A stretch of DNA of 52,623 nucleotides, taken from positions 1 to 52,623 of the forward strand of contig JAIYCH010000016.1 in NCBI GenBank assembly GCA_027488135.1. Direction: 5' to 3'. This stretch comes from Saprospiraceae bacterium (GTDB lineage: Bacteria > Bacteroidota > Bacteroidia > Chitinophagales > Saprospiraceae). Positions 14,645-44,172 of this stretch are shown here, piece after piece; position 1 is the first letter of the stretch; each line of letters opens with the position of its first letter. The translations under genes and the position numbers were made by a program. The notes under the pieces were generated by a model. The model ran no database searches and was not told where the DNA came from. It worked only from the letters and a program-made list of their open reading frames with translations.

Positions 14645-14647
14645 ACC

Positions 14648-30000: not shown

Positions 30001-30144
30001 TTTAATCAAAACGGTGACACCTGTAAGTTTTTCATTACTTCCACTTTCCGAAACGGTCCCCGTAATTTTTATTTGTCCAAAGACTGCATTACTTCCTACA
30101 ATGGAGGCAAGAATCAATAAGCATTTTAAAAGCCTCATTCCCAT
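27082..30144 (-). CDS. SusC/RagA-family TonB-dependent transporter (beta-glucan locus)
   Basis: 1020 residues. Signal peptide ends at about VFGQ (24); carboxypeptidase-regulatory-like domain about 26-100; TonB-box-like EIVVVGYG at 106-113; plug about 114-225 with INVLKDAASAAIYGSRGANG; then the barrel, ending LGLQLGF. Starts at Met1 or Met3 are equally plausible. Second gene of the operon after the T9SS protein (16-bp gap) and directly followed by SusD. It probably imports GH16 products such as laminari-oligosaccharides. Confidence 0.95.
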   Translation of the reverse strand: MGMRLLKCLLILASIVGSNAVFGQIKITGTVSESGSNEKLTGVTVLIKNTQDGVVTELDGTFELTVPNEKSVLVISYLGMETREILVGNTRVFQILLNPSSSVMDEIVVVGYGTQIRSSISGAVSTVSSKDLEGVPLLRAEQAIQGKTAGVQVTQNSGSPGSTLSVRIRGTGTINDSEPLYLVDGVPVSGIDFLNPGDIATINVLKDAASAAIYGSRGANGVVVITTKTGKMAEKQYGSIQYENYFGQQQAWKKMNLLDAREYAILSNEAHIAGGKTPLAAFSNPEALGKGTDWQEAIFQVAPIQSHQLSLTGGSALSTFALSGSYFNQAGVVGGEKSGFERYTARLNISQQLKPWLKMSGNVLYTNLNRNGLPENNEFNTPLVRALNIDPVTSIRKFDGTYNYSIYVDTDLANPVNAIENQHNTWQSNRVLSSIQADVNIRKGLVFRSSFNRDETFASQSIFIPIFNLSLDPASNDAPASERNPVNTVIKNDFSWQNWQWENVLTWDYTKEKHKLNALLGSTALANSYYFLTGSNTNLPSNQVKDAFLGNTIAPRESQGSGDFASASGMLSFFTRFQYDYDNKYLLSTTLRRDGSSRFGKNNRYGYFPSVSAGWVVSREDFWGLEALNFLKLRASWGQNGNDRIGEYSYTTIVYPGQNYTFGSSETITSGSTPLEASNPDLKWETGEQINAGLDLEMFNGKFHFTADYYKKTTRDMLARIPIPTLVGLRAPFQNVGTMANNGLELSLLYQGKKKSLNYSLGANIGFVKSEVLSLGLGGEPIITGNVFSAGNVSRTDVGYPIASFYGYVTDGIFQSQEEVKAHAFQNEKTAPGDIRFKDLNGDGIINETDQTYIGNPTPSFTYGVTSQVQWKGFDLSIFIQGTQGNDIYNGIFRYDFFYSNRPQSVLNRWTGAGTSNSEPRVNLNDPNKNARVSDRFIEDGSFVRLKNIQLGYDLKHKLLKKWKIDKARIYFSGQNLLTLTKYSGLDPEIGSVGGSLEIGIDQGFYPQARMASLGLQLGF

Positions 30145-30160: not shown

Positions 30161-32557
30161 TTATGGATTTATCACCAATTTGCGTACATCTCTCTTTTCT
30201 CCCTGATATATTACCGCCCAATAAACGCCTGGTTGAAGACCTGATACATCTATGTTTAGTGATTGGGTAGCCTTGGGTAAAGTGTAAGATTGGCAAATAC
30301 GTCCAAGGGCGTCCATCAACATCCACCGAGCTGTTTCTGAGCCAGCTAATTTTAAATTCAACTGAATCTCAGCGGTTGCAGGATTTGGAAAAATGCTGAA
30401 CAGTGGCGCGAAGCTAATGTCCCTGGCATCTGTTGTAGTACAATTTGTACAAGCATTAAAACAAGCTACACTTAAAACGCTATCCTTACTTACCGTTAAA
30501 ACCCTGTTTGTAAATCCACCTGATGTAACCGTACAAGATTCTCCACCTTTGAATTCTTCCTGCGCTGTCCATCCGTCAATTTGATATTTAAATTCAAATT
30601 TTCCATCTGGTAAGTTAATTTCTGCCGTCCAGATTTTATCATTATCGTCATCCTTCAAAGGATTTTTATTAGCGGACCATTCATTAAATTGTCCACTCAC
30701 ATAAACCCCAACAAAAGACTTGGTATAAGATTTCATATTCACCCTGAAAGTTACTTTCCTGGTTACCTGAACACCACAACTTGCCGTAGTAGTACATTGA
30801 CCGAAGCAGGTATTTAAAATGGTATCTTTTGTAAAAGGACCCATTTTCCTATCATTATAATTATCTGCATTGGCACAAGCCTGTCCGCTGATAATTTCCT
30901 TACAACTGTAATCAGCACAAGAACCATTAGTAAAAGTATAGTAGGAAGTAAATCCTATGGGTCTTTCAAAAGTAATGGAGTAAATACCGTCTTTATCAGC
31001 ATCTTTTAGGGGGAAGTTTCCTGGTACGCCAAAATTTCCGCCACCTGCTATGAATATACCCGTTGGAGCAACAGTGATATGCTGTGTACCAAGATTAACC
31101 GTAAACTTAATGGCTTTTCCACAAGCATAACAGCTATTAAAACAAAAAGTATCCTTTTTAACACCTGACGCTGGAATAACCAGATTTCTGTTGGTAAAGC
31201 CACCATCTGTTACCGTACAAGTTTCAGTTCCGGTAAACTCTTCTTGTTTTGCCCATTTATCGAGTTGAAACTTATATTGAATCGTTCCGGGGTCGAGGGA
31301 CAATCTGGTTGTCCAGATACCGTCTTTATCAGTGTCTTGAAGTGGATTAGAACTGTCAGACCAGTTATTGAATGTTCCACTGATATAAACCGTTTGAAAA
31401 GCACCGGTGTATTTCTTCATATCAACGGCGAAATCAACATCAACTTTACTTGGTGCAGCAGCTGTACACACTTTAATATCATCTACATAATTTGTGTCGG
31501 AAGAAGTCGCGCCGGTTTTTCCAAAATCAGGAAACAGAACAATAGTCTGATAGGTAAAACTTGCCGCTGGTTTTTTAGGATCTTCTAAAGACGGCAGGGT
31601 TGGATCAAAACAAATTTCCACCCATTCTTTTGCTTTTGGAACCTCCACTTGTTGCACCCAATTAGCACCGCCTGTTGAGGCACCTTCGAGTTTTACAGCA
31701 AAAACACCCGCTTTTTTCATCCATACTTTCATGCAAATTTTAGAACCTGGCGCAGTAAAGCTTACTGGAATTTTAGGATTCGGGGAACTAAAAGCACCTC
31801 CCCAAGTCTGGCTATCTGCTGGTTTAAATATTTCAATTACTTTTTTACTGTCATTTCCGGCTGTTACTGCAGGGTTATTCACCACTTTATTCTTTTGTCC
31901 ATCTAATCCACTGCCAAAATATTGGAAAACGGTTGAAGTGGAATCTACTTCGAAATCTAATACTGTTTTACATCCGGGAGCAGGAGGAAGTTTCAAGGTA
32001 AAATCATCCAGATAAGAAGTTCCCGCAGATTGAGCACCGGTTTTTCCAAAATCAACAAATATTACAATTCTTTTATAACTGAAGCCCAATGCAGCTTTAA
32101 AAGGATCTTCTATAGAAGCTTTACTCACATCAAAACAAACTTCAACCCATTCCTTAGCCTTATTTACAGGTTCGGTAATCGTCCAGTTAGGTCCGCCATT
32201 AGTTGATCCCTCAAATTTTAAGGCCACATTTCCTACCTGATTCATCCATACTTTCACACAAACCAAAGAACCTGGCTTACTTAAATCTACAGCCTTGTCG
32301 AAGTCAGGCGTAATGAATGCACCTGCCCAGGTTTGAGCATCAGCTGGCTTTACATATTCTGCTACTTTCAAACTAGTATTCAACCCGGTCGCGCTTGGAT
32401 TATTGATTATTTTATTTTTCTGACCGTCCAGTCCACTACCAAAATATTGAAAATCTCTGCTTGTCTCCGGTTTTTCAAAATCCAGGATAACCGTTTGCCC
32501 CTGCATGGAATTCATGTATAGGGTAAAGCTAAATAGTAAGTAAATTATTTTTTTCAT
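30161..32557 (-). CDS. T9SS-exported multi-module glycan-binding protein
   Basis: 798 residues without a recognisable catalytic domain. Signal peptide 1-20. Two tandem homologous jelly-roll-like modules (about 22-195 and 196-370) both carry FQYFGSGLDGQKNK and DAQTW/DSQTW with KAKEWVE. Three starch-binding-like (CBM48/CBM20-fold) repeats follow (about 372-480, 481-590, 598-706; e.g. VYISGTFNNWS, VYVSGQFNEWS). A T9SS type A sorting domain (about 718-798; SIFPNPATAE) closes the chain. Cys pairs recur at module ends. It leads the beta-glucan operon from a promoter candidate about 36 bp upstream of its start. Likely a surface or secreted binder that holds glycan or enzymes at the cell (inference). 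Confidence 0.85.
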   Translation of the reverse strand: MKKIIYLLFSFTLYMNSMQGQTVILDFEKPETSRDFQYFGSGLDGQKNKIINNPSATGLNTSLKVAEYVKPADAQTWAGAFITPDFDKAVDLSKPGSLVCVKVWMNQVGNVALKFEGSTNGGPNWTITEPVNKAKEWVEVCFDVSKASIEDPFKAALGFSYKRIVIFVDFGKTGAQSAGTSYLDDFTLKLPPAPGCKTVLDFEVDSTSTVFQYFGSGLDGQKNKVVNNPAVTAGNDSKKVIEIFKPADSQTWGGAFSSPNPKIPVSFTAPGSKICMKVWMKKAGVFAVKLEGASTGGANWVQQVEVPKAKEWVEICFDPTLPSLEDPKKPAASFTYQTIVLFPDFGKTGATSSDTNYVDDIKVCTAAAPSKVDVDFAVDMKKYTGAFQTVYISGTFNNWSDSSNPLQDTDKDGIWTTRLSLDPGTIQYKFQLDKWAKQEEFTGTETCTVTDGGFTNRNLVIPASGVKKDTFCFNSCYACGKAIKFTVNLGTQHITVAPTGIFIAGGGNFGVPGNFPLKDADKDGIYSITFERPIGFTSYYTFTNGSCADYSCKEIISGQACANADNYNDRKMGPFTKDTILNTCFGQCTTTASCGVQVTRKVTFRVNMKSYTKSFVGVYVSGQFNEWSANKNPLKDDDNDKIWTAEINLPDGKFEFKYQIDGWTAQEEFKGGESCTVTSGGFTNRVLTVSKDSVLSVACFNACTNCTTTDARDISFAPLFSIFPNPATAEIQLNLKLAGSETARWMLMDALGRICQSYTLPKATQSLNIDVSGLQPGVYWAVIYQGEKRDVRKLVINP

Positions 32558-32661: not shown

Positions 32662-32697
32662 ATTACATCATTCATTACATCATTACTACATCAAATG
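32662..32697. repeat. Three tandem 12-bp units (attacatcattc-like)
   Basis: ATTACATCATTC, ATTACATCATTA and CTACATCAAATG follow each other without gaps, the third being degenerate. They lie between the operon promoter candidate and the regulator gene. A period of 12 bp places copies roughly one helical turn apart, as expected for cooperative regulator binding. Binding by the adjacent LuxR-type regulator is inferred only. Confidence 0.55.
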
Positions 32698-32772
32698 ATA
32701 ATTATTAAAAGTTATCTTTACAAATGTTTCTGTGCAAAAGCCTTTTTGGTTGTTGTTTATCAAAGGAAAATC

Positions 32773-35586
32773 ATGAATCATTTTTTGATTAAAATTATTT
32801 TCATTTCCTTACTTTTTATTTTTCCGACTTTCACAAATGGTCAGGGACTGCCCTTTATTTCAAATTTCGAAAAAGGTGTTTATCAGGGTGGGACACAACA
32901 TTGGGAAATAGTTTCTGATGCTTATGGTGTTTTGTACGTGGCTAATAATGATGGATTATTAACTTACGATGGATATACCTGGCGAAAATACCCCGTAAAA
33001 AACCGAACCATTGTTCGATCTGTTTTATTGGATAATAATAAAATATTTGTTGGTGCCCAGGGAGAGTTTGGATATTTTAAGGGAGACAATCCACGGGAAA
33101 TGGTATATGTTTCTCTCCAAAAACAACTAGATTCCCTAAAGGTCAAACTGGAGGATATCTGGGATATTGTCAAAAACGACCAAGGCGTGATTTATTTTTA
33201 TTCCGGGCGACAATTATTCCGTCTTGAGAATGGAAAAATAGATTTCCATGAACTACCCGCTGATATCTCCTATCTGGGCGTGACAGATAATCAACTGTTT
33301 ATTCATTGCTTACAAAAAGGACTTTACAAACTAAACCCCAATGGAAAGCCTGTTTTTTTAACTTCCATTCCCTTAAAAGACGGCGCTATAACCAAGGTCA
33401 TGCCCTTCAGCAAGAATATCTTCCTGGTAGCAACCTTAGAGGGTTCCCTGTATCTTTTTGACGGAAAAAAGCTGAGTTTATGGGATAATCAGGCAAAAGA
33501 ATACCTTTCCCGACACAAGATCTATACGGCAACTATCCTTTACAATGGCCAATTTGCACTGGGGACCTCCAGAGGTGGCATTGTTATTTTGGACAAATAT
33601 GGAAAAACCCAATTTGTACTAAACAAGGAAAATGGACTGATTAATAATAATGTGCTAAGTCTTTTTAATGATAAACAAGGAAATCTATGGGCAGGAACAG
33701 ATAATGGCATCTCCTGTATTCAACTTTTTTACCCATTCACTTATCTTTATCCCGACGAAAATATGGGCGGAACAGCCTATTCTGCCATAAAAAAAGGAAG
33801 AAATTTCTATTTTGGCACGGTGAATGGCCTCTACCAGCATACCGCCGAAGAAAATGGTCGACTGGCAAAATCAAAGGCTTCCCTCATTCCTAATACGGAA
33901 GGACAAGTCTGGCAGGTTCAATCTTTTGGCAATGAAATCTGGGTAGGGCATCACCTCGGTGCTTTTGTGTTTAATGAAAATGATAAGCCCAGACATATAT
34001 TGAAAAATACAGGTGCTTGGCTTTTCAAAGAAATCCCAGGGGTTAAAAACAAACTGCTCTGTGGCTCCTACAATGGCATTTACCTCCTTGAAAATAAAAA
34101 TAGCGTCTGGAATCCTCTGGGCAAATTATCCCGATTTGATGAATCTGCCAGAATCATCATACCAGAATCAAATCATTCCTTTTGGATAGCTCATCCCTAT
34201 CGAGGTATTTTTAATCTTCGTTTAGATGAATCTGATTTCTTTTCTTCCAGCGTTACCTATTTGAATACAAATCAAAAATTACCTTCAAACAATGGAAATT
34301 CCGTTTATTCCATTTATAATCAAGCTGTTTTTACCACTGAAAATGGCATTTACAAATATGATCCTATCCAACGTTCCTTCTTTCCCTACACTTTGTTGAA
34401 TCAAGTTATTGGAACGTCCAATAAAGTTAAAACCTTAGTGGAAGGATTTGACGGGGATATCTGGTTTGCCCAGGGCGATGAGGTGGGGTATTTGGCCCGT
34501 GCTGAAAAGTACAGGGATTCCGTTGTTTTTAAAAAGAAAATGATCCCATTTTTAAAAAATAAGCTGGTGGGTGGCTTTGAATTTATCTATCCATACCAAA
34601 AGGATAAGGTTCTTTTTGGGACAGATAAAGGATTTCTATTTTATGACATGAAAATCCAGAATCAATATCCGGAAAATATCCTGTTGCGTAATTTTTCATT
34701 TGATAAAAACCTGAATACCGCCACTTTTGAGTATGTTTTACCATATTTATCCCAAAGTCTGAATATTCAATATGCTATAAAACTGGAAGGCTTTGATAGG
34801 GCGTGGAGACCCTGGACGAAGGACAATAAAATGACTTATAGCAATTTACCACCTGGTTCCTACCGTTTCCTGGTAAAAGCCCAAATTGAAGGAATAAAGT
34901 CATGGAAACCTCTTCCGTTTTCCTTTACCGTCGATCCTCCCTGGTACTTAAGTCGTGGGTTCAAGTTTTTTTATCTTTTTATCTTTCTACTTACCATTTT
35001 CCTTTTATTATTTATTCCTCGAAAAAGATTCGACAGGGAAAAGAAATTAATGGAACAAAAACTTCAAAAGAAGACGCTATCGGAGAAAATCAGGGCTGAC
35101 AAAGCTTTAGAGGATATTGTTCGATTGGAAAATGAAAAATTACAACTCGACAATGATACCAAAAATCAGGAATTAGCCTCCACAACGTTGCATTTATTGC
35201 AGAAAAATGAATTAATTCAAGACCTAAGCATAAAACTTAGCGAAATCAGCAAATCTAGTAAGGAAAAAGAGACAAAACAAGCTATAGATCAACTACTCAA
35301 TAAGGTAGCCAGCGATCACCAGATGGATGAAGACTGGGAGGTTTTTGCGTTACATTTTAATCAGGTTCACCTTGATTTTTTACATAGGATAGTTGAAAAA
35401 TATCCTGATATTACCCCAAAGGATCAAAAATTGTGCGCCTTTTTAAGGATGAACCTATCGTCAAAAGAGATAGCTCCTCTTCTGGGAATTTCCATCCGAG
35501 GCGTTGAAATAAGTCGTTACCGGTTAAGAAAAAAGCTTCACCTGAGAGCTGATGATAATCTTTCAACCTTCATTCTACATTTTTAA
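32773..35586 (+). CDS. Membrane-spanning propeller/Y_Y_Y sensor with LuxR-type HTH output
   Basis: The frame opens at 32695, but ATG at 32773 has AAGGAAA just upstream and begins a proper signal peptide (MNHFLIKIIFISLLFIF), so it is preferred (937 residues). The order is: periplasmic two-component-type propeller repeats (about 25-655; YGVLYVANNDGLLTYDG, GNLWAGTDNGISCI), a Y_Y_Y domain (about 660-722; YSNLPPGSYRFLVKAQ), one transmembrane helix (about 727-749), a coiled coil, and a C-terminal LuxR-like helix-turn-helix (about 882-925; SSKEIAPLLGISIRGVEISRYRLRKKL). No kinase or receiver is present: sensing and DNA binding are in one chain. Divergent from the beta-glucan operon, which it probably controls. 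Its last 12 bp overlap the convergent lyase gene. Confidence 0.9.
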   Translation: MNHFLIKIIFISLLFIFPTFTNGQGLPFISNFEKGVYQGGTQHWEIVSDAYGVLYVANNDGLLTYDGYTWRKYPVKNRTIVRSVLLDNNKIFVGAQGEFGYFKGDNPREMVYVSLQKQLDSLKVKLEDIWDIVKNDQGVIYFYSGRQLFRLENGKIDFHELPADISYLGVTDNQLFIHCLQKGLYKLNPNGKPVFLTSIPLKDGAITKVMPFSKNIFLVATLEGSLYLFDGKKLSLWDNQAKEYLSRHKIYTATILYNGQFALGTSRGGIVILDKYGKTQFVLNKENGLINNNVLSLFNDKQGNLWAGTDNGISCIQLFYPFTYLYPDENMGGTAYSAIKKGRNFYFGTVNGLYQHTAEENGRLAKSKASLIPNTEGQVWQVQSFGNEIWVGHHLGAFVFNENDKPRHILKNTGAWLFKEIPGVKNKLLCGSYNGIYLLENKNSVWNPLGKLSRFDESARIIIPESNHSFWIAHPYRGIFNLRLDESDFFSSSVTYLNTNQKLPSNNGNSVYSIYNQAVFTTENGIYKYDPIQRSFFPYTLLNQVIGTSNKVKTLVEGFDGDIWFAQGDEVGYLARAEKYRDSVVFKKKMIPFLKNKLVGGFEFIYPYQKDKVLFGTDKGFLFYDMKIQNQYPENILLRNFSFDKNLNTATFEYVLPYLSQSLNIQYAIKLEGFDRAWRPWTKDNKMTYSNLPPGSYRFLVKAQIEGIKSWKPLPFSFTVDPPWYLSRGFKFFYLFIFLLTIFLLLFIPRKRFDREKKLMEQKLQKKTLSEKIRADKALEDIVRLENEKLQLDNDTKNQELASTTLHLLQKNELIQDLSIKLSEISKSSKEKETKQAIDQLLNKVASDHQMDEDWEVFALHFNQVHLDFLHRIVEKYPDITPKDQKLCAFLRMNLSSKEIAPLLGISIRGVEISRYRLRKKLHLRADDNLSTFILHF

Positions 35587-36750
35587 CCAAATCAATGGAT
35601 TTCTGATTGGTAAATTTCTAATGACCTCTTCATTTTCAGGAAAACGATTTAAATTTCCCCAGGTAGTTAACCAGGATTGATTTTTAAATGCCATAGCGCC
35701 AAATAATAAAAATGGCTGAGCCACCGGCCATTCTTCCCAATACATCACATCCTTCGGATAGGGCCATTTATTTTTATCTTCGATAAATGGATAAATAAAT
35801 GAAACACCATTTTTCATTGTTCTGCCATCGGGAAGGGAAAAATTCCACAAATTTTTATCGGCTAAAAGATGGCAAATCGTCGCCATGGCATCTAAATTAA
35901 ACAAGGAATAACCGAAGGGCTTCGTTCTTGCTAATTCCAGTGGAAACGACCCTTTTTGATCCATTTGGTTAGGTAATATAATGGTTTTAAATCTATTAGC
36001 ACAAGTATCAAGCAATGCCTGATTTCCCGTTAATTTAGCAAATGCTGCCACCTGCATGACCCAGCAAGTTCCGTGATTGTTTTTGGCATTTCGCTCATCA
36101 ATACCGTACTGATGCGTTGTCACCCACGATAAATATTTCTCAAACCAGTTTTTAACTCCTTTAATTTCCTCTTTTTTGTTTGGTAAAGCCTTTTCTATAA
36201 CCCTTAAACTTTGTGCCACTTCAATCATTTGAATCATATCAATAATACCAATACCACGGCCAGTTACTCTACCTTTTATAGCCTGAGCATAAAGAAGAGA
36301 AGGATTCATCAGCGTTTCCTCATTTAAAAACCATGCCTCGTAATGCTTGAAGGCCTGTTCCGCATATTCTTTTTTCCTTTCTATCAAATATGCAGAAGTC
36401 AAGGTACCCACCAGCTGGCTAAAACGAATCATCGCTTTTCTATGGGCTACAAAATTATTGGGATTGCTCATACCATCCCTTTGAATATAAGAGCTGTCCG
36501 GACTAACTGGATTTTCCCACCAATAATCTCCCTCGGAATAAAAGTCATGTTTTCCGCCTGCTGAACGAGGAGAAGTTTCATTGGTAACCGTTATCGGTTT
36601 TTCAATCATAGCCTGTTGTGCCAGGCTTATGATTTTATTTTTATACGCCTCATCCATCATATATTTTTCAACCCATGCCGATTGGGCACTCAGAAAATGG
36701 TAAGGCAGTATCAAACTAAGGATGAAAACATATTTAATGTTGGTCGTCAT
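35575..36750 (-). CDS. Secreted alginate-lyase-fold polysaccharide lyase
   Basis: 391 residues with a signal peptide ending LSAQ (about 23). GDYWWENPVSPDS (75-86), NNFVAHRKAMIRFS (98-111) and NNHGTCW (224-230) match the alpha/alpha-barrel Alginate_lyase domain (PF05426; PL5, PL38 and relatives), in which Asn and His of the NNHG segment act in catalysis. It probably cleaves a uronic-acid-containing polymer by beta-elimination; whether alginate or a glucuronan is unclear. It is convergent with the regulator (12-bp overlap) and divergent from the HUMPS operon, which could process its uronate products (inference). A GH88-type or kdgF-type partner is not in the window. Confidence 0.82.
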   Translation of the reverse strand: MTTNIKYVFILSLILPYHFLSAQSAWVEKYMMDEAYKNKIISLAQQAMIEKPITVTNETSPRSAGGKHDFYSEGDYWWENPVSPDSSYIQRDGMSNPNNFVAHRKAMIRFSQLVGTLTSAYLIERKKEYAEQAFKHYEAWFLNEETLMNPSLLYAQAIKGRVTGRGIGIIDMIQMIEVAQSLRVIEKALPNKKEEIKGVKNWFEKYLSWVTTHQYGIDERNAKNNHGTCWVMQVAAFAKLTGNQALLDTCANRFKTIILPNQMDQKGSFPLELARTKPFGYSLFNLDAMATICHLLADKNLWNFSLPDGRTMKNGVSFIYPFIEDKNKWPYPKDVMYWEEWPVAQPFLLFGAMAFKNQSWLTTWGNLNRFPENEEVIRNLPIRNPLIWLKM

Positions 36751-36776
36751 AAAAAGTATTTAAATTAAATGATGAT

Positions 36777-36801
36777 AACAAGAATAGTAAAATTTCTTGT
36801 T
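36777..36801. promoter_or_regulatory. Inverted repeat, operator candidate
   Basis: AACAAGAA (36777-36784) and TTCTTGTT (36794-36801) are perfect inverted arms separated by 9 nt. The site lies 27 bp from the lyase start and 44 bp from the HUMPS operon start, so one dimeric regulator could control both divergent units. No regulator gene is adjacent. Confidence 0.42.
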
Positions 36802-36844
36802 CCATAAATAAAAAAAGGTATGAAATAATATTTATCTTGTCAAT

Positions 36845-37552
36845 ATGAAACCAATAGTACAAATATCCTTGGACCTCACCAATATCGATGAGGCGTTAGA
36901 AACCGCAGCCATGGCCCTTCGCGCTGGCGTCGATTGGCTGGAAGCTGGAACACCCCTCATTTTAGCTGAGGGCTTGCATGGCGTAAGAAAACTTCGTGAA
37001 GCTTTTCCTGGTATTCCCATTGTTGCAGACCTGAAAACCATGGATGGTGGTTATCTCGAAGCTGAAATGATGGCAAAAGCAGGTGCGACCCATGTGGTTG
37101 TCATGGCTCGTGCTCATGAAGAAACCATTAAATGTGTTGTTCAGGCCGGTAAAGACTATAACATTAAGGTTATGGGCGATAATCTAGGCTGTCCTGATAT
37201 GGTGGCCGGAGCCAAATGGCTGGAAGATCTGGGCTGCGATTTTGTTATTCACCATATTGGTTATGATGAACGCAGAGGCATTGCCGCCCGAGGTCTTCGG
37301 ATGCCCAATCCATTGGATCAACTAAGAGAAGTCGTTGAAGCTGTTCGTATTCCGGTACAGGCTGTTGGTGGCCTAACCCTAGAACAGGCCATTCAATGTC
37401 CTCTTTATGGTGCACCTTTGGTGGTTTTGGGCGCCCCTTTAACTATTGATGCAGATGCCTTTAAAACGGCAGATGGTAATTTAGAGGCCTCCCTTAGGTT
37501 AATTTGTGAAAAAATACATGCATACAAGGATGTTCCTGTTCGGAATGCTTAA
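36845..37552 (+). CDS. HUMPS-family lyase/decarboxylase (3-hexulose-6-phosphate synthase / KGPDC-like)
   Basis: 235 residues of the orotidine-5'-phosphate-decarboxylase-suprafamily barrel. Asp10, Glu33, Asp62, Lys64 and Asp67 (A-D-L-K-T-M-D) form the Mg- and substrate-binding set shared by hexulose-phosphate synthase (HPS) and 3-keto-L-gulonate-6-phosphate decarboxylase. The H136-x-I-G-Y-D segment is closer to the HPS pattern (H-T-G-Y-D). The phosphate-loop area reads VLGAPLT, which departs from the usual V-G-G-A-I. No hexulose-phosphate isomerase or sugar kinase is nearby, so a different, perhaps non-phosphorylated, substrate is possible. First gene of a plus-strand operon with 11 bp to the next gene. 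Confidence 0.82.
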   Translation: MKPIVQISLDLTNIDEALETAAMALRAGVDWLEAGTPLILAEGLHGVRKLREAFPGIPIVADLKTMDGGYLEAEMMAKAGATHVVVMARAHEETIKCVVQAGKDYNIKVMGDNLGCPDMVAGAKWLEDLGCDFVIHHIGYDERRGIAARGLRMPNPLDQLREVVEAVRIPVQAVGGLTLEQAIQCPLYGAPLVVLGAPLTIDADAFKTADGNLEASLRLICEKIHAYKDVPVRNA

Positions 37553-37563
37553 AATCTAAAAAT

Positions 37564-38598
37564 ATGTCCAGTTTATCAAATCCCGCAGTAGTAAATTTTG
37601 CTCCTGAAAAAGGTTCTGTGGAAATTCGTGAAATCGCTGTCCCAGTTATTGGCGATGATGATGTATTGTTAGAAGTGGTCAATGTCGGCGTTTGCGGCAG
37701 TGACCTGCATCAATGGACGGCCGATCATAGCTGGCCTGTAAATTATCCGGTAGTTTTAGGTCACGAATTTGGTGGGCTCATTGCGGCTGTTGGTAAAAAT
37801 GTCTCTGTTTGGAAAGAAGGTGACAGGGTGGTTAGTGAAACAGCCGCTATCATTAATCCTAATAGTCCTATGTCAAAAACAGGATTATATAATCTCGATC
37901 CTGACAGAAAAGGATTTGGTTATGGCGTTAATGGGGCAATGACCCGTTATGTTAGGGTTCCTGCACGTTGTTTACATAAAGTTCCCACTCAATTGTCCTT
38001 CGAAGAAGCTTGTCTGACGGAGCCTTGCTGTGTCGCCTACAATTCCGTAGCCGTTAATAGTTCTGTGAAACCAGGAGATCGTGTCATAGTAATTGGCCCG
38101 GGAACCATTGGTATTTTATGTGCTGCCGTAGCTCGTATTTGTGGTGCTGAAGTAGCCGTAGTAGGTCTTGAATCTGATAAGTTGAGACTTGATATTGCTA
38201 AACAATATGGTTGTGAACCCATCATTGGAGATGCCACCGAATGGGCAAAGAACAGGGACGGACTGGGCGCTGATCTGATTGTTGATGCCGCAGGGGCAAG
38301 TATTACTTTAAAAATGGCGCTTCAATGGGTCAGACCTAACGGTCAAATAACCAAAGTGGGCTGGGGTCCTCAACCTTTGGGCTTTTCTCTCGATCCTTTG
38401 GTTCAAAAAAATGTAACCTTAAAAGGTAGTTTCAGTCATAACTGGCCCATCTGGGAGAGGGTGATTGCACTCCTCGCAAGTGGTAGCCTCAATGTTAAAC
38501 CCATCATCGGTGGCGTTTGGGCCATTGATCAATGGAAAGAGGCTTTTGAAAAAATGCACCACGGCGAAGTAGTCAAAAGTGTCCTAAAACCCTTCTGA
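37564..38598 (+). CDS. Zinc-type medium-chain dehydrogenase (MDR) without structural zinc cysteines
   Basis: 344 residues. Catalytic zinc ligands are Cys44 (VGVCGSD), His67-Glu68 (VLGHEFGG) and Glu153. The NAD site is IGPGTIGILCA (177-187). The loop that normally carries four structural-zinc cysteines (about 92-120) has none and instead reads through NPNSPMSKTGLYNLDPDRKG. It is related to polyol and threonine dehydrogenases (galactitol-phosphate, sorbitol, L-threonine types) and probably oxidises a sugar hydroxyl. It sits between the HUMPS gene (11 bp) and the SDR gene (stop and ATG 1 bp apart). Confidence 0.87.
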   Translation: MSSLSNPAVVNFAPEKGSVEIREIAVPVIGDDDVLLEVVNVGVCGSDLHQWTADHSWPVNYPVVLGHEFGGLIAAVGKNVSVWKEGDRVVSETAAIINPNSPMSKTGLYNLDPDRKGFGYGVNGAMTRYVRVPARCLHKVPTQLSFEEACLTEPCCVAYNSVAVNSSVKPGDRVIVIGPGTIGILCAAVARICGAEVAVVGLESDKLRLDIAKQYGCEPIIGDATEWAKNRDGLGADLIVDAAGASITLKMALQWVRPNGQITKVGWGPQPLGFSLDPLVQKNVTLKGSFSHNWPIWERVIALLASGSLNVKPIIGGVWAIDQWKEAFEKMHHGEVVKSVLKPF

Positions 38599-38599
38599 T

Positions 38600-39394
38600 A
38601 TGCGCCTTCAAGGTAAAGTTATTATAGTTACAGGAAGTACTACCGGTATCGGGAAAGCCATGGCTTACCGCTTTGTTCAGGAAGGTGCCAAAGTAGTTAT
38701 TCACGGTCTGGAAAAAGATTGGGGTGAAGAAATTATTCAGGAATTAGGGAAGGAAAATGCTGCGCTTTGCATAGGTGATCTTCAAGAGGAGGCAACCATC
38801 ACAGCATTGGCAAATTGTGCTCTTGCTTCGTTTGGGAAATTAGATGGTCTTGTCAATAACGCAGCTTGGGTGGTATCTTCTAATCTGGAGACTACCAGCG
38901 CCCCATTTTTTGAAAAAGTACTGAAAATAAACACCATAGTTCCCTTTCTTTTAATTAAAGAATGCCTGCCTTATTTAACGAAACAGAAAGGCGCCGTGTT
39001 AAATATTGGTTCCGTAAATGCCTACAGTGGAGAACCTAATCTGTTGGCCTACAGTGTGTCAAAAGGTGGTTTGATGACCCTCACCAGAAATTTGGGCGAT
39101 ACCTTACACAGGGAAAATGGCGTTAGGGTTAATCAGATAAACCCAGGCTGGGTCCTTACAGAAACCGAACAGCAAAGGAAAATGGCCCATGGATTATCGG
39201 AAAATTGGTTCAGTAAAATTCCTTCTGTTTTTGCTCCTTCAGGCCGGCTCATAAAACCGGAAGAAATTGCCGCCGCCGCTGTCTATTGGCTGGGTGACGA
39301 ATGTGGTCCCATTTCAGGTCAAATTGTTGAATTAGAACAACATCCTTTCATTGGAAGAAATCCACCCAAAGATTCTTCTACCATAAATAATTGA
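38600..39394 (+). CDS. Short-chain dehydrogenase/reductase (SDR) of the HUMPS operon
   Basis: 264 residues. TGSTTGIG is at 11-18, NNAAW at 86-90, and the catalytic Ser138, Tyr151, Lys155 triad is present (S-x12-Y-S-V-S-K). The cofactor loop after beta-2 (HGLEKD) does not clearly choose between NAD and NADP. In this operon it may reduce or oxidise the product of the MDR or HUMPS enzyme. ATG follows the MDR stop after a single base. Confidence 0.9.
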   Translation: MRLQGKVIIVTGSTTGIGKAMAYRFVQEGAKVVIHGLEKDWGEEIIQELGKENAALCIGDLQEEATITALANCALASFGKLDGLVNNAAWVVSSNLETTSAPFFEKVLKINTIVPFLLIKECLPYLTKQKGAVLNIGSVNAYSGEPNLLAYSVSKGGLMTLTRNLGDTLHRENGVRVNQINPGWVLTETEQQRKMAHGLSENWFSKIPSVFAPSGRLIKPEEIAAAAVYWLGDECGPISGQIVELEQHPFIGRNPPKDSSTINN

Positions 39395-39396
39395 AA

Positions 39397-40281
39397 ATGC
39401 CTCAGTTAGCTGCTTTTCCAAAAGCTTATATGAACGCCCTTTGTAAAGATGGAACCATGAAGGTTTCTGAATGGATTGATATTGCAGGTAATCTTGACAT
39501 TGACGGGATAGAATGGTATGCCGGATTTTTGGAAATGGAAAATGCTGCAAACTGGAAAATTTTCCGACGTCAGGTGGAAGATAAAGGTATGGTTATCCCG
39601 ATGATGTGCTGTTCTCCAGATTTTACTCATCCCGATAAGTCATTTCGCGATATAGAAATAGCGAAACAAAAGCATTGGATAGATATGACCTATGCGCTCG
39701 GTGGAAAATATTGTAGAGTGCTTTCAGGTCAGAAAAGACCCGAATTATCCATTGACTTGGGTATTCAACTTGCCGCAGACTGCATTCATGAATGCTTACC
39801 TTATGCACAGGAGCGTGATATAACCCTAATTATTGAAAATCATTACAAAGATGATTTTTGGACTTATCCGGAATTTGCCCAGAAAATGGATATTTTTTGT
39901 GCCTTGGTCGATAAGATTAATCATCCCTTTTTTGGCGTAAATTATGATCCCAGCAATACCTATCTGGCAGGTGAAGACCCCATTGAATTATTGAACCGGG
40001 TTTCCCATCGCGTGGTTACCATGCACGCCAGTGACCGATATTTAAAAGAAGGTACGCTGGAAGATTTACGCAATGAAGAAGGTGGTGCCGTGGGTTATGC
40101 CAAACGCCTCAGTCATGGGGAAATTGGAAAAGGCTTAAATGATTACGATGCCATTTTTTCTATCCTGAAAAAAGAAAAATTTGACGGTTGGATCAGCATT
40201 GAAGATGGCGTAGATGGCATTGAGCAGCTGGAACGAAGTGTATTATTTTTGCGTAAAAAAATGAAGGAATATTTCTCCTGA
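39397..40281 (+). CDS. Sugar phosphate isomerase/epimerase-like TIM-barrel protein
   Basis: 294 residues. An upstream TTG (39391) is in frame and overlaps the SDR stop, but ATG at 39397 two bases after that stop is preferred. The AP-endonuclease-2-like TIM barrel shows metal-site features: IDGIEWYAG (about 32-40), IIENHYKD (Glu and His), the GVNYDPSNTYLAGEDP strand, VTMHASDR and GWISIEDG. Family members include tagatose/psicose epimerases, hydroxypyruvate isomerase, inosose dehydratase and 3-keto-sugar enzymes. The neighbourhood suggests isomerisation, epimerisation or dehydration of a keto-sugar made by the MDR or SDR. 16 bp precede the transporter gene. Confidence 0.84.
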   Translation: MPQLAAFPKAYMNALCKDGTMKVSEWIDIAGNLDIDGIEWYAGFLEMENAANWKIFRRQVEDKGMVIPMMCCSPDFTHPDKSFRDIEIAKQKHWIDMTYALGGKYCRVLSGQKRPELSIDLGIQLAADCIHECLPYAQERDITLIIENHYKDDFWTYPEFAQKMDIFCALVDKINHPFFGVNYDPSNTYLAGEDPIELLNRVSHRVVTMHASDRYLKEGTLEDLRNEEGGAVGYAKRLSHGEIGKGLNDYDAIFSILKKEKFDGWISIEDGVDGIEQLERSVLFLRKKMKEYFS

Positions 40282-40297
40282 TTGCTGAATATTCCAA

Positions 40298-41644
40298 ATG
40301 AAACCTGCACCTACCCGATTTTTTGATATCCTGAAACACCTTGGTCCAGGCATTATTATAGCTGGCTCCATCGTGGGTTCCGGTGAGTTAATCGCCACAA
40401 CGCTGGTAGGAGCGAAAACAGGTTTTGTCCTCCTTTGGCTCATTGTATTAGGTTGTGTTATTAAGGTATTTACCTTGATAGAATTTGGCAGAAACACCAT
40501 CATACATTCCACTTCGCCCCTAGAGGCTTTAAACGAAATACCAGGTCCGAAATGGAATGTTCGCTGGATAATCTGGTATTGGTTTTTCATGATTGTCCTT
40601 ATTATTTCTCAACAAGGAGGCATATTAGGTGCTACCAGTCAAGCCGTTGCGGCTATTTCATTTACTGTTAGTGACAGCAGCTGGTTAAATAATATCAATA
40701 TATTATCTACCATCATTGCCTTGATAACCGCTTTCATGCTATATTTTGGGCGCTTTTCCTTTATTCAGTCCTTTTCAACTCTTTTAGTGTTTCTTTTTAC
40801 AACGGTTACACTCTTTAACGTTGTCTATCTGCAGTTTATACCAGGATGGGAAATATCGTGGTCTGATATAAAAGCAGGAATGAGCCTGGGTATTCCCGAA
40901 AGTACCGATGGGCTGGCCATAGCTTTAGCTGCATTTGGGCTCATTGGCGTAGGATCGTCGGAAATAATTATGTATCCGTATTGGTGTCTGGAAAAAGGTT
41001 ATGCCAAATTTACAGGCCCATATCAAGATACCCCTGAATGGCATGAAAATGCAAAGGGCTGGATCAAAGTATTAAAAATCGATGCCTGGTTGTCATTGAT
41101 TGTTTACACCTTAGCTACCGTCGCTTTTTATCTTCTTGGAGCTTCTATTCTGCATAGAAATGAGCTGTTACCAGAAGAAAATAACCTAATTACAACCCTA
41201 GGCGAAATGTATGTACCCGTGTTTGGGTTGTGGGCAAAACCTGTCTTTTTTGCGGGAGCTATCGCTGTCCTTTATTCTACCTTTTTTGTCGCCGCTGCGG
41301 GAAATGCCAGGGTTTTAGCCGATGGTTTTTCACTGATAGGTTTTATCAAAAACAATCCTTTAATCCATGAAAAATGGACTAAAATACTCTCATTTGCCTG
41401 GCCCATTGCCGCTTTAGTCCTCTTTCTATTCATTCAGGCGCCTAAATCGATGATCATCTGGTCTGGCATCGCTCAAGCTGTTATGCTTCCCATGCTCGCT
41501 TTTGCTGCCCTATATTTTCGTTATTTTAAAACACCAAAAAAACTTAAACCAGCTTTCATCTGGGATATCTTTTTAATTATTTCCGCTATGGGTATGCTTA
41601 TAGTCGCTGTTTGGACTTTATGGTCAAAATGGCCTTTTGGATAA
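40298..41644 (+). CDS. Nramp-fold transporter lacking the metal-binding residues
   Basis: 448 residues with about 11 membrane helices. The TM1 frame LGPGIII... aligns with Nramp proteins, but the metal-binding D-P-G-N is replaced by G27-S-G-E30. The TM6 region (217-229) reads GVGSSEIIMYPYW, without the M-P-H-N signature. The metal-coordinating Asp, Asn and Met are therefore absent or not alignable, and Mn/Fe transport is unlikely. Other Nramp features (GRNTII after TM2; long loop with PEWHENAKGW) remain. As the last gene of a sugar-type catabolic operon, it could import an organic substrate such as a uronate or keto-sugar (inference). Calling it MntH would be misleading. Confidence 0.8.
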   Translation: MKPAPTRFFDILKHLGPGIIIAGSIVGSGELIATTLVGAKTGFVLLWLIVLGCVIKVFTLIEFGRNTIIHSTSPLEALNEIPGPKWNVRWIIWYWFFMIVLIISQQGGILGATSQAVAAISFTVSDSSWLNNINILSTIIALITAFMLYFGRFSFIQSFSTLLVFLFTTVTLFNVVYLQFIPGWEISWSDIKAGMSLGIPESTDGLAIALAAFGLIGVGSSEIIMYPYWCLEKGYAKFTGPYQDTPEWHENAKGWIKVLKIDAWLSLIVYTLATVAFYLLGASILHRNELLPEENNLITTLGEMYVPVFGLWAKPVFFAGAIAVLYSTFFVAAAGNARVLADGFSLIGFIKNNPLIHEKWTKILSFAWPIAALVLFLFIQAPKSMIIWSGIAQAVMLPMLAFAALYFRYFKTPKKLKPAFIWDIFLIISAMGMLIVAVWTLWSKWPFG

Positions 41645-41985
41645 ATTTTAAACATTACTCATTGCGCATTACCCATCAAAAGCCTTTCATATACAAAGCT
41701 TTTGAGCTGTCCGGGTTACGGTTTGTGTACTACAGATTTTTATTTTTGTAAAGGATTCTTGTTTGACGTCTTCCTCACTATTTTTCAGGTTGTTTTTTCT
41801 TATTTTGATTATAAAATAGGTTTTGATTTTTGCGATATTCTTCATTTGCAACAAACCACATGCCTCCTTGACTTTGTTCCACAATGAATTAGTTGATAAT
41901 GCGATAGTACAACCCGTAACTGATGTAATCAATTTAGTTTTACCGATTTCTTGGATAATTAGTCAAGACTCCCTAGGTTTACGCC
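41645..41985. other. Intergenic region with a hairpin and no convincing gene
   Basis: Short frames on both strands here have no family features and are rejected. A bulged hairpin (CAAAAGC... GCTTTTG, 41677-41704) lies 33 bp after the transporter stop; it lacks a T tract and is only a weak terminator candidate. The right end contains the promoter candidate of the next gene. Confidence 0.4.
41950..41981 (+). promoter_or_regulatory. Candidate promoter of the luciferase-like oxidoreductase gene
   Basis: CTTG (41950-41953) and TAGGTTTA (41974-41981) each differ by one base from the -33 TTTG and -7 TAnnTTTG boxes and are 20 bp apart. The -7 box ends 4 bp before the ATG, so transcription would begin at or near the start codon. 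Confidence 0.32.
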
Positions 41986-43029
41986 ATGGAAATAGGAATA
42001 GATAGTTTTGCCGCCTTTGTAACGGATGCTCAAGGAAACCCTGTCGGTACCGCTCAAGATGCATTGCGTGAATTACTGGATCGCATCCAGTTGGCCGATG
42101 AAAAAGGGTTGGATGTATTTGCCATTGGGGAGCACCATCGAAAGGAATTTTTAGATTCCGCCACCTCAGTGATTTTGGCTGCTGCCGCCGCGCGCACCTC
42201 TCGGATTCGATTAAGCAGTGCAGTAACAGTACTCAGCGCAGCAGACCCGGTACGGGTATTCCAACAGTTTGCTACGCTGGACTTACTCTCCCAAGGTCGT
42301 GCCGAACTGGTTGTAGGGAGGGGTTCCTTTACAGAAGCATTTCCCCTTTTTGGTTTAAATATTCAAGATTACGATGCCCTGTTTGCAGAAAAACTTGATC
42401 TGCTATTGCAGCTCAATGAACAAGAGGTAATCACCTGGAAGGGGCGTTTTCGGCCTTCCTTGCAATCGCAAGCGATTTATCCAAGGCCCATGCAAGCCAA
42501 ACTCCCCATTTGGTTGGGCGTAGGTGGCACCCCCGCTTCCTTTGTGCGGGCAGGTTCCCTTGGACTTCCCTTAATGGTAGCGGTGATTGGTGGGGAGACA
42601 CACCGTTTCCGCCCCTTGATTGATCTGTATAGGGAAGCTGGATACAAGGCTGGCTTTGCACAAGAAGACTTAAAGGTAGGCTTGCATTCCCTGGGTTATG
42701 TAGCGAAAACCCATGAAGAAGCGGTGGAAACTTACTACCCAGGCTATGCCGAAACCTTCACCCGCATCGGTCGCGAGCGTGGTTGGCCACCCGTCACCCG
42801 AGGGCATTTTGAAGCCCAAAATGCTCCCCGAGGAGCCTACCTGGTAGGAGATTCCGATGAGGTGGCAGAGAAAATTCTGCGTCACAGTGCCTCATTGGGA
42901 GGAATTGATCGCTTTACCTTTCAGCTAGACAATGCCGGGCTGAGTCATCAGCAACTCAGTGAAACCATTGCCTTGATAGGGGAAGAGGTAATCCCTAAAG
43001 TAAAAAAAGCACTTTCCCATGAGGATTAA
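41986..43029 (+). CDS. LLM-class (luciferase-like) flavin-dependent oxidoreductase
   Basis: 347 residues. LDVFAIGEHHRKEF (39-52), RIRLSSAVTVLSAADPVRVFQQFATLDLLSQGRAELVVGRGSF and PIWLGVGGTP are typical of single-component LLM monooxygenase-like proteins that use FMNH2 or F420-like flavins. The product probably acts in the cytoplasm on an unknown small molecule. Base composition differs from the surroundings: many GCC, CGC and GGG codons, about half GC by eye against about 40% nearby. This suggests recent acquisition. No flavin reductase gene is adjacent. It marks the left end of the accessory island. Confidence 0.88.
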   Translation: MEIGIDSFAAFVTDAQGNPVGTAQDALRELLDRIQLADEKGLDVFAIGEHHRKEFLDSATSVILAAAAARTSRIRLSSAVTVLSAADPVRVFQQFATLDLLSQGRAELVVGRGSFTEAFPLFGLNIQDYDALFAEKLDLLLQLNEQEVITWKGRFRPSLQSQAIYPRPMQAKLPIWLGVGGTPASFVRAGSLGLPLMVAVIGGETHRFRPLIDLYREAGYKAGFAQEDLKVGLHSLGYVAKTHEEAVETYYPGYAETFTRIGRERGWPPVTRGHFEAQNAPRGAYLVGDSDEVAEKILRHSASLGGIDRFTFQLDNAGLSHQQLSETIALIGEEVIPKVKKALSHED

Positions 43030-43380
43030 GCTATTATATTCTTTCCTACCCAGGATTTCGGAAGCAAATTTGTTGAATTAAATAAAAAGTGAAAATAGTT
43101 ATTTAACTACATTGATCACTGGTCCGAAGAATGTTAAGGTATAGAAATGACCAAGAACCAGGACTAATATTAACAGGAAACTTTATTGAAAAGGTTTGTG
43201 ATTGACTAGAAAGTAGGCTCAAATAAATGTAATCACCAAAATTGACGAAGAGCCCAATTTCACCGGAATATGCACAGTTACTACATATTCTGCCTCATTT
43301 CGTTGTAAACGCCACTTTTGTCATCCAAATGCCACACAGAAGTCGTTCATTTAATTATTTATTAATACTAGTTTTGTAAA
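43030..43380. other. Intergenic region with a near-consensus -7 box at its right end
   Basis: No gene is visible in these 351 bp. TAGTTTTG at 43369-43376 matches the -7 box TAnnTTTG exactly and ends 4 bp before the ATG of the XRE gene. No good -33 box is present at 19-21 bp spacing, so the promoter call is tentative; if real, the transcript would be leaderless. Confidence 0.35.
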
Positions 43381-44172
43381 ATGAAAATAGGAGAACGCAT
43401 AAAAGAAATACGAGTAGCAAAAGGAATGACCCAATTGGAGTTAGCTGAAAAAAGCGGCGTAGCTCTTAGAACGGTACAGAGAATTGAAAATAACGAAGTA
43501 ACCCCAAGCTTTTACTCATTAAATGCCATTGGCGAGGCATTGGACATAAAATTGAATGCTGACCTTTTTATTGAAGGCGATAATAAATTTGAATTCAAAA
43601 TTGTTATCTCAAACTTCAGTAACCTTTTTGCAGATATTGGAACTTTAATTAAAAGAAATATGAAAACACTATTAGTGCTTATCACAGTAGCATTTGGCTT
43701 CTTGTCCTACGAAGATTTGAAATTATTGTTTGTTAATATATCAGATAATTCAATCATATCCGTCTCTACCATCAATTGTGGCACCAAAAATGAGTGTGAT
43801 ATTGAGCTTGTTAAAAAAGACGACGAGGGAATTGTGTTATGGAAGCGTGTAATAGGTGGAACAAGTTATGATAAGGCAGGACAAGTGGTAAGAACTAAAG
43901 ATGGCAGTTACATTGTCGTTGGGTCCACAAGTTCTTTTGGGAAGGGTAATTACGATGTATTCATTGTAAAGGTTAGTTCCAAAGGAGAAATTCTTTGGCA
44001 GAAAACTTATGGCGAATTCTTGAACGATTATGGATTAAGAATAGCAGAAGTTGTGGATAATTTATACCAGATAGAAGCAACGAAACAAATTTGTGCCACA
44101 TTTAATGTATCCAATGATTGTTATAATCAAGAATGGTTGTTTAAAATTGACGAGAGCGGACTTGTAAAATAA
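43381..44172 (+). CDS. XRE helix-turn-helix protein with transmembrane segment and propeller-like C-terminus
   Basis: 263 residues with an unusual domain order. An N-terminal XRE/Cro-type HTH (1-60; MTQLELAEKSGVALRTVQRIENNEVTP) is followed by a charged linker, one transmembrane helix (about 94-110) and an outside part with propeller-like blades (about 150-210; GGTSYDKAGQVVRTKDGSYIVVG, DVFIVKVSSKGEILWQKTYG). Only two to three blades are present, so the propeller is incomplete or oligomeric. It could be a one-component membrane regulator whose DNA-binding head is tethered inside while the blades sense outside. Its last 48 codons lie in a 155-bp segment duplicated at 45511-45665. Confidence 0.78.
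   Translation: MKIGERIKEIRVAKGMTQLELAEKSGVALRTVQRIENNEVTPSFYSLNAIGEALDIKLNADLFIEGDNKFEFKIVISNFSNLFADIGTLIKRNMKTLLVLITVAFGFLSYEDLKLLFVNISDNSIISVSTINCGTKNECDIELVKKDDEGIVLWKRVIGGTSYDKAGQVVRTKDGSYIVVGSTSSFGKGNYDVFIVKVSSKGEILWQKTYGEFLNDYGLRIAEVVDNLYQIEATKQICATFNVSNDCYNQEWLFKIDESGLVK

Follow-up and report, generated by a model that had tools for sequence, protein, structure and literature searches.

An Nramp-superfamily carrier without the canonical metal-site motifs ends a putative sugar-type catabolic operon in Saprospiraceae and may take an organic substrate

Nramp relatives encoded with the enzymes of organic-acid pathways have been described in Corynebacterium glutamicum (PxpT) and Bacillus subtilis (YcsG), in both cases with the 5-oxoprolinase pathway. 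Deletion of pxpT abolishes growth of C. glutamicum on 5-oxoproline, and the authors propose 5-oxoproline uptake without excluding a metal (PMC13274462). For YcsG, encoded in an oxoprolinase operon, another group reports Mn2+ import and a promoter bound by MntR (PMC10448178), and MumT, encoded in a urea-carboxylase operon, is reported to support Mn accumulation (PMC5050338). The NRMT proteins (EleNRMT and CabNRMT), Mg2+ transporters with a non-canonical site, carry the signature DxxG-TxxA/T (PMC8806188). Slc11/Nramp-related proteins without the TM1 and TM6 motifs and without most proton-path residues have been termed the Nramp ‘outgroup’ (PMC9606685) and ‘Nramp-related proteins’ (PMC12873925), the latter being paraphyletic and lacking both DPGN and MPH, so that the loss of these motifs in Nramp relatives is already in print; the accessible parts of both sources describe no GSGE clade, operons or substrate. 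No report of sugar-acid transport by an Nramp relative was found among the papers listed in searches of open-access literature. Added here are a definition of the GSGE clade, a controlled survey of its genomic contexts, and its association across genomes with a single catabolic enzyme.

The window, meaning the whole stretch of DNA that was analysed, is an entire contig of 52,623 bases from a 4.2-Mb Saprospiraceae genome, and its relatives at 90–91% identity are genomes assembled from metagenomes, which carry the labels Haliscomenobacteraceae, Haliscomenobacter, Saprospiraceae, Bacteroidetes or Bacteroidota. As with the PxpT-type relatives, to which it is likened by description and not by sequence, the carrier is encoded with catabolic enzymes, arranged as follows.

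32695..35586, + strand: likely sensor/regulator with a beta-propeller and a Y_Y_Y domain, upstream (PF07494, PF07495)
35575..36750, - strand: alginate-lyase-family polysaccharide lyase, divergent from the operon (PF05426, E 3.4e-84; nearest solved structure the alginate lyase 3nfv, E 2.5e-56)
36845..37552, + strand: OMP-decarboxylase/HUMPS-superfamily enzyme, like hexulose-6-phosphate synthase or 3-keto-L-gulonate-6-phosphate decarboxylase (PF00215, E 3e-23; nearest solved structure 9lj9, E 1.5e-41)
37564..38598, + strand: zinc-type medium-chain dehydrogenase (PF08240/PF00107)
38600..39394, + strand: short-chain dehydrogenase (PF13561/PF00106)
39391..40281, + strand: xylose-isomerase-like TIM-barrel isomerase or epimerase, TTG start (PF01261, E 1.5e-36)
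40298..41644, + strand: Nramp-related carrier, 448 aa, fifth and last operon gene (NCBIfam NF037982 Nramp_1, hhalign, tree)

The first-pass annotation had placed the carrier at the end of a five-gene sugar-type operon, and this is borne out by the tight intergenic spacing (11 bp, 1 bp, a 4-bp overlap and 16 bp, in order) and by a gene order preserved in the four distinct relatives at 90–91% identity whose contigs extend far enough (L002, L003, L004 and L006), L077 being the same contig as L002. Promoter or terminator signals in 36700–42050 showed no excess over shuffles, and it is therefore by their spacing and conserved order that the five genes are judged probably to form one operon. Eight further ORFs scanned within 32695–44172 gave no match to a transporter family. 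The nearest NCBIfam models of the zinc-type dehydrogenase are threonine and scyllo-inosose dehydrogenases, both below cut-off. The HUMPS-like enzyme carries GAPL, presumably where the phosphate-binding stretch GRxI would be expected, and the scanned operon genes include no kinase; the enzyme may work on unphosphorylated substrates. The nearest structure to the divergent lyase, 3nfv, is one we take to belong to family PL38, which would make the lyase PL38-like. Upstream, the minus strand holds a long series of ORFs (867–32557), including a SusC homologue of 1020 aa at 27082–30144, and perhaps represents polysaccharide utilisation loci beside the operon; the large ORFs at 17939–20356, 20396–22537 and 30161–32557 had no solved-structure match at E 1e-10.

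The membership of the carrier in the Nramp superfamily is apparent from profile comparisons. It scores 84 bits against the NCBIfam model NF037982 Nramp_1 (cut-off 50), while a Pfam search with the carrier alone listed nothing up to E 10, PF01566 failing to detect it, and phmmer gave no match to solved structures up to E 1. A profile of 30 clade sequences (A1), used in hmmsearch of solved structures in place of single-sequence searches, matched 16 distinct solved sequences, each bearing the name of an Nramp-type or divalent metal transporter or of the aluminium transporter. The best match was 7qia (E 4.1e-11), across the N-terminal part of the profile up to about TM5 (positions 15–190), followed by 10ky across positions 24–441 (E 3.5e-10), 8ont (E 1.7e-6) and MntH entries from 3.5e-6. 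Against ten canonical Bacteroidota Nramps, hhalign returned a probability of 98% (E 2.3e-13, 401 columns), compared with 0.4% for a single amino acid permease that served as negative control. The assignment of the labels DraNramp and EleNRMT to PDB entries is in part provisional. By these profile alignments the carrier is a distant, full-length relative within the Nramp superfamily in the broad sense, and would be predicted to adopt the Nramp (LeuT-like) fold; an AlphaFold2 model from seven near-identical sequences (the window protein and six relatives at 90–91% identity) has a mean pLDDT of 33.5.

The carrier shares with canonical Nramp/MntH proteins, in addition to full-length profile homology, an LGPG before TM1 and a tyrosine, Tyr226, that falls on a Tyr in both the 8e5s and the hhalign alignments, but it differs in its neighbours and in the loss of DPGN and MPHN. 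The positions concerned are as follows.

40376..40387, + strand: TM1 motif G27-S28-G29-E30, after L15-G16-P17-G18, replacing D-P-G-N
40463..40465, + strand: Lys56 in TM2 (K in 34/34 clade rows of a wider alignment)
40946..40984, + strand: TM6 stretch G217–W229 (GVGSSEIIMYPYW), without M-P-H-N (hmmsearch, hhalign and clade conservation)

The replacement of D-P-G-N by G-S-G-E at residues 27–30, claimed in the first-pass annotation, is confirmed in both hmmsearch against solved Nramps and hhalign against the ten Bacteroidota Nramps, where the two motifs align free of gaps. The same annotation had found M-P-H-N missing from residues 217–229 (G-V-G-S-S-E-I-I-M-Y-P-Y-W), which likewise holds in every register tried, with the canonical TM6 residues kept in no alignment. 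The register itself, and hence the residue at the position of the metal-binding Met, differs between methods: hmmsearch to the MntH entry 8e5s places S221-E222-I223 on M-P-H ungapped, whereas hhalign places V218-G219-S220-S221 on M-P-H-N with a three-residue gap, and the TM6 alignments of A1 to 10ky and 8ont are also gapped. G27, S28, G29 and E30 are invariant in 30/30 clade members, and 30/30 of the best-scoring canonical Bacteroidota loci hold an ORF with DPGN and MPHN; GSGE is therefore neither a sequencing error nor a chance substitution. Position 222 is Glu in 29/30 members and Asp in the remaining one, while position 221, Ser in the window, is Asp in 23/30, Glu in two, Gly in two, and Ser, Ala and Thr in one each. 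The further claim that the protein has no metal-binding residues is too strong because carboxylates are conserved in TM1 and TM6: the canonical site is lost, but the invariant E30, Glu at 222 and the frequent Asp at 221 are possible ligands, and E30 and E222 are predicted to lie in or near the stretches that formerly held the metal. At TM2 position 56, Ala occupies 10/10 canonical rows and Thr 4/4 GPGT-type rows. Lys56 was dropped as a marker of organic carriers on account of L180, a GPGT-type protein without Lys56 whose gene directly precedes hydantoinase/oxoprolinase genes.

With the NRMT proteins the carrier has in common a non-canonical site, but not its form. Its GxxE in TM1 lies on D-A-G-G of 7qia, an NRMT structure (PMC9606685), with DxxG absent, and its TM6 reads VxxS or LxxV depending on the register, with no TxxA/T, the 7qia alignment itself stopping at about TM5.

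In a tree of 59 rows, a single branch splits off the GSGE clade (34 rows, support 98/94), with the ten canonical rows standing apart (100/100), so that the tree and site inspection put forward with the original claims yielded a separate clade. Nine near copies or repeated loci were excluded beforehand and the tree carries a long-branch warning that includes L074, L055 and L073. The window protein pairs with L018 (52% identity; support 100/96) and groups more loosely with L055 (92/96) and L015 (81/69). Members of the clade occur in Bacteroidota and on plasmids of Actinomycetota, Alphaproteobacteria and a haloarchaeon. Within the phylum, clade carriers are present in 18/395 genomes, with best E values of 9.4e-79 or better, and one more genome (G286; L025/L056) has a copy of the clade gene broken by in-frame stops. 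Searches at the family, class and order levels, in overlapping sets and with cut-offs of 1e-20 and 1e-30, found 10/61, 6/395 and 9/298 genomes. The distribution beyond the Bacteroidota comes from 11 plasmid records (tblastn), including one partial match (H11), of which eight possess the clade motifs (L067–L074) and two, L075 and L076, fall outside the clade; seven of the eight are in the tree, L069 having been left out as a near copy of L067. The plasmid hosts are Skermanella (two), Rubrobacter, Streptomyces (two), Roseomonas, Microscilla and, more distantly, Halocatena, and the records annotate the clade genes as ‘Nramp family divalent metal transporter’.

The only PF01566 match in the genome of the window, up to E 1, is on another contig (C18; L037 1414–2691) and is of a non-canonical type, with IGPGT in TM1 and TTIVPYN in TM6; no Nramp with DPGN and MPH was seen in that search. 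Many canonical Bacteroidota Nramps are about 620–640 aa (L125–L129, L131 and others), and the C-terminal extension of one of them, L125, resembles by eye a universal-stress-protein domain.

The clade carriers are found in several settings with genes for sugar or sugar-acid metabolism. On the two Streptomyces plasmids, aldo/keto reductase, aldolase and phosphoglycerate-dehydrogenase-type genes lie just upstream of the carrier, with a four-carbon acid sugar kinase, PdxA and DeoR divergent from the aldolase group; no other named transporter was among the genes listed for these stretches, the gene table being incomplete. A UxaA-family hydrolase lies 22 bp downstream of the carrier in Rubrobacter, a mannonate dehydratase is divergent from it in Halocatena with a DHDPS-family gene nearby, and in Microscilla the carrier follows a family 43 glycosylhydrolase by 8 bp within a SusC/SusD locus. 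At Bacteroidota loci, the genes adjacent to the carrier or a few genes away include GH67 and fucosidase genes (L038), a tannase/feruloyl esterase (L044), an FAA hydrolase (L048), Gfo/Idh oxidoreductases (L045 and L080), and a TIM barrel with a GMC oxidoreductase (L042). The neighbour tabulation suggested with the first-pass annotation gave, by judgement, a sugar or sugar-acid gene near the carrier in about eight of 21 Bacteroidota loci taken one per genus (the window, L038, L040, L042, L044, L045, L048 and L080), a pattern that agrees with a sugar-linked role in part, the contexts being uneven. No such gene was among the neighbours scanned one by one at L043, L053, L078, L082 and L083, a scan that covered part of the neighbours at some of the 21 loci. 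Other settings speak against such a role: both Skermanella plasmids encode an SLC13 permease downstream of the carrier, with a sugar ABC transporter close by, and near the carrier of L041 are genes for a P-type ATPase and HlyD. In Roseomonas (L072 8920–10338) the clade carrier lies 136 bp after an alpha/beta hydrolase-fold gene and downstream of a catecholate siderophore cluster, an iron setting at odds with a sugar-acid substrate.

On the Rubrobacter plasmid (L068), two different Nramp relatives (8908–10332 and 14262–15731) flank the UxaA-family hydrolase and a GntR regulator. Other Nramp-related types are also encoded beside organic-acid genes, including one with CoA-transferase/thiolase genes (L175 4968–6236), one directly beside an amidase gene (L177 4968–6260) and one directly beside the hydantoinase/oxoprolinase genes mentioned above (L180 4998–6206), while L176, L178, L179 and L181 showed no organic-acid operon, L181 having an MgtC/SapB gene nearby.

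A control compared the 21 clade loci (78 neighbours) with 16 canonical loci chosen by best PF01566 scores (61 neighbours), again one locus per genus, with neighbours defined as up to two mechanically called ORFs of >=120 aa per side. Iron-dependent repressor domains were present in 6/61 canonical neighbours, along with four FeoA, possibly the same proteins, and two FeoB, whereas the listed families with matches in at least two of the 78 clade neighbours included no iron repressor, Feo protein or metal regulator, the families listed being the best 25 of 125 and the best 25 of 85 in the two neighbour sets. The difference in repressors gives a Fisher p of 0.006 if clade loci have none beyond the listed matches and 0.04 if they have one. 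The clade neighbours included TIM barrels (4/78), an excess that is not significant (p 0.13 to 0.38), and two Gfo/Idh proteins. Scanned one by one, 60 clade neighbours yielded one P-type ATPase and neither an iron repressor nor a feo gene.

Matches to the first operon enzyme were present in 14/395 genomes at E<=1e-15; in 12 genomes they reached 1.1e-40 or better, and in one of these (G194) the match consisted of two pieces. The clade carrier is present in nine of those 12 (and likewise in nine of the 14) versus 18/395 overall, giving hypergeometric p values of 1.7e-11 and 1.5e-10, respectively, and 2.8e-10 when the genome of the window is left out. Counted by genus, p is 1.5e-8, or 1.1e-6 when both genes are required in one genome. 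PF01566 matches in general are more weakly associated with the enzyme (12/12 versus 261/395, p 0.006), and in three of the 12 the sole such match, at about 1e-12, is weak and could be the clade protein itself. Part of the co-occurrence signal may come from a shared lifestyle and from relatedness among the genomes. In the eight other co-occurring genomes, the carrier and the enzyme lie on separate contigs or, where they share one, at a long distance from each other; in draft assemblies, separate contigs are no proof of unlinked genes. The enzyme cassette is found without an adjacent carrier at L109–L112, L119 and L120. Among these sibling cassettes, L109 adjoins a GMC oxidoreductase (homologue in L111), L110 a Gfo/Idh protein and L112 a gluconolactonase (homologue in L119), which points to oxidised sugars and lactones as entries to the pathway. 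On haloarchaeal plasmids (L121–L124), an aldolase, a zinc dehydrogenase and a TIM barrel with 53–55% identity to that of the window occur among sulfatase and Gfo/Idh genes, with no annotated Nramp in the stretch.

Taken with the PxpT precedent, the independent operon contexts, the contrast with the neighbours of canonical Nramps and the co-occurrence with the first enzyme argue, with moderate confidence, that the carrier probably takes a different, possibly organic, substrate, and this is favoured over metal supply. The suggestion of a different, perhaps organic, substrate made in the first-pass annotation is thus the better-supported one, although altered sites can still carry Mg2+ or Mn2+. 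That the substrate is a sugar acid goes a step further and is the most likely identity by gene context. The carrier would be a secondary carrier of the inner membrane, with a rebuilt metal site, that supplies the co-encoded enzymes with a sugar acid, or else with an oxidised or keto derivative of a sugar, by import. In such a scheme the flanking lyase and the SusC-type system would break a polysaccharide down to a monomer that crosses the inner membrane via the carrier; the two dehydrogenases and the TIM-barrel enzyme would oxidise and isomerise it, and the hexulose-phosphate-synthase-like enzyme would then cleave or decarboxylate the product. E30 and E222 could hold either an ion for coupling (H+ or Na+) or the hydroxyls of the substrate.

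Judged by the residues alone, a purely metal and a purely organic function were both set aside because the changed site of EleNRMT, of the DxxG-TxxA/T group, still passes Mg2+ and Mn2+ (PMC8806188). The retained carboxylates of the clade could bind a divalent ion. It is conceivable, but unlikely, that the protein is still a divalent-cation carrier (Mg2+/Mn2+, like NRMT, YcsG/MntG and MumT) feeding the metal-dependent enzymes of the operon. HUMPS enzymes and TIM-barrel isomerases commonly require Mg2+ or Mn2+, acidic residues are conserved in TM1 and TM6, and no solved protein matches the profile better than the NRMT structure 7qia. YcsG is reported to raise cellular Mn2+ (PMC10448178) and MumT to be needed for Mn accumulation (PMC5050338). 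Weighing against metal supply, the canonical ligands (Asp, Asn, Met and His) are missing and the NRMT signature is absent, the 60 scanned neighbours lack iron repressor and feo genes, though one P-type ATPase is among them, and the clade carrier travels with chemically unlike sugar-acid pathways. Export of a toxic or excess pathway intermediate or co-product, in place of import of a substrate, is improbable: the position of the carrier as last operon gene and the occurrence of the cassette elsewhere without an adjacent copy mean that it may be accessory, but the precedent, PxpT, is reported to act in uptake (PMC13274462), and the analysis, though aimed at other features, brought up none typical of an exporter. 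Least probable of all is a carrier with no specific link to the operon, its terminal place being an insertion fixed in one genus, for although sibling cassettes lack the carrier, copies at 90–91% identity come only from close relatives and clade contexts vary, the 16-bp gap, the conserved order and the presence of clade and first enzyme together in 9/12 genomes stand against it.

Returning to an organic substrate as the preferred reading, its extension to the whole GSGE branch can be offered tentatively, at somewhat less than an even chance: a branch with a TM6 Glu, often as Asp-Glu, and an invariant TM2 Lys would have swapped metal binding for sugar-acid binding and would form a class of importers that is widespread but has gone unrecognised under its present annotation as divalent metal transporters, and in which the paired-glutamate site may couple to H+ or Na+. 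The clade bears on the published dispute over whether Nramp relatives in catabolic operons carry an organic substrate (PxpT) or manganese (YcsG/MntG and MumT), and the annotation ‘divalent metal transporter’ may hide a class of carbon-source importers. If this is true, the Nramp fold would have exchanged a metal ion for a polar organic acid as its substrate, and GSGE, Glu222 and Lys56 would be clean markers of the change.
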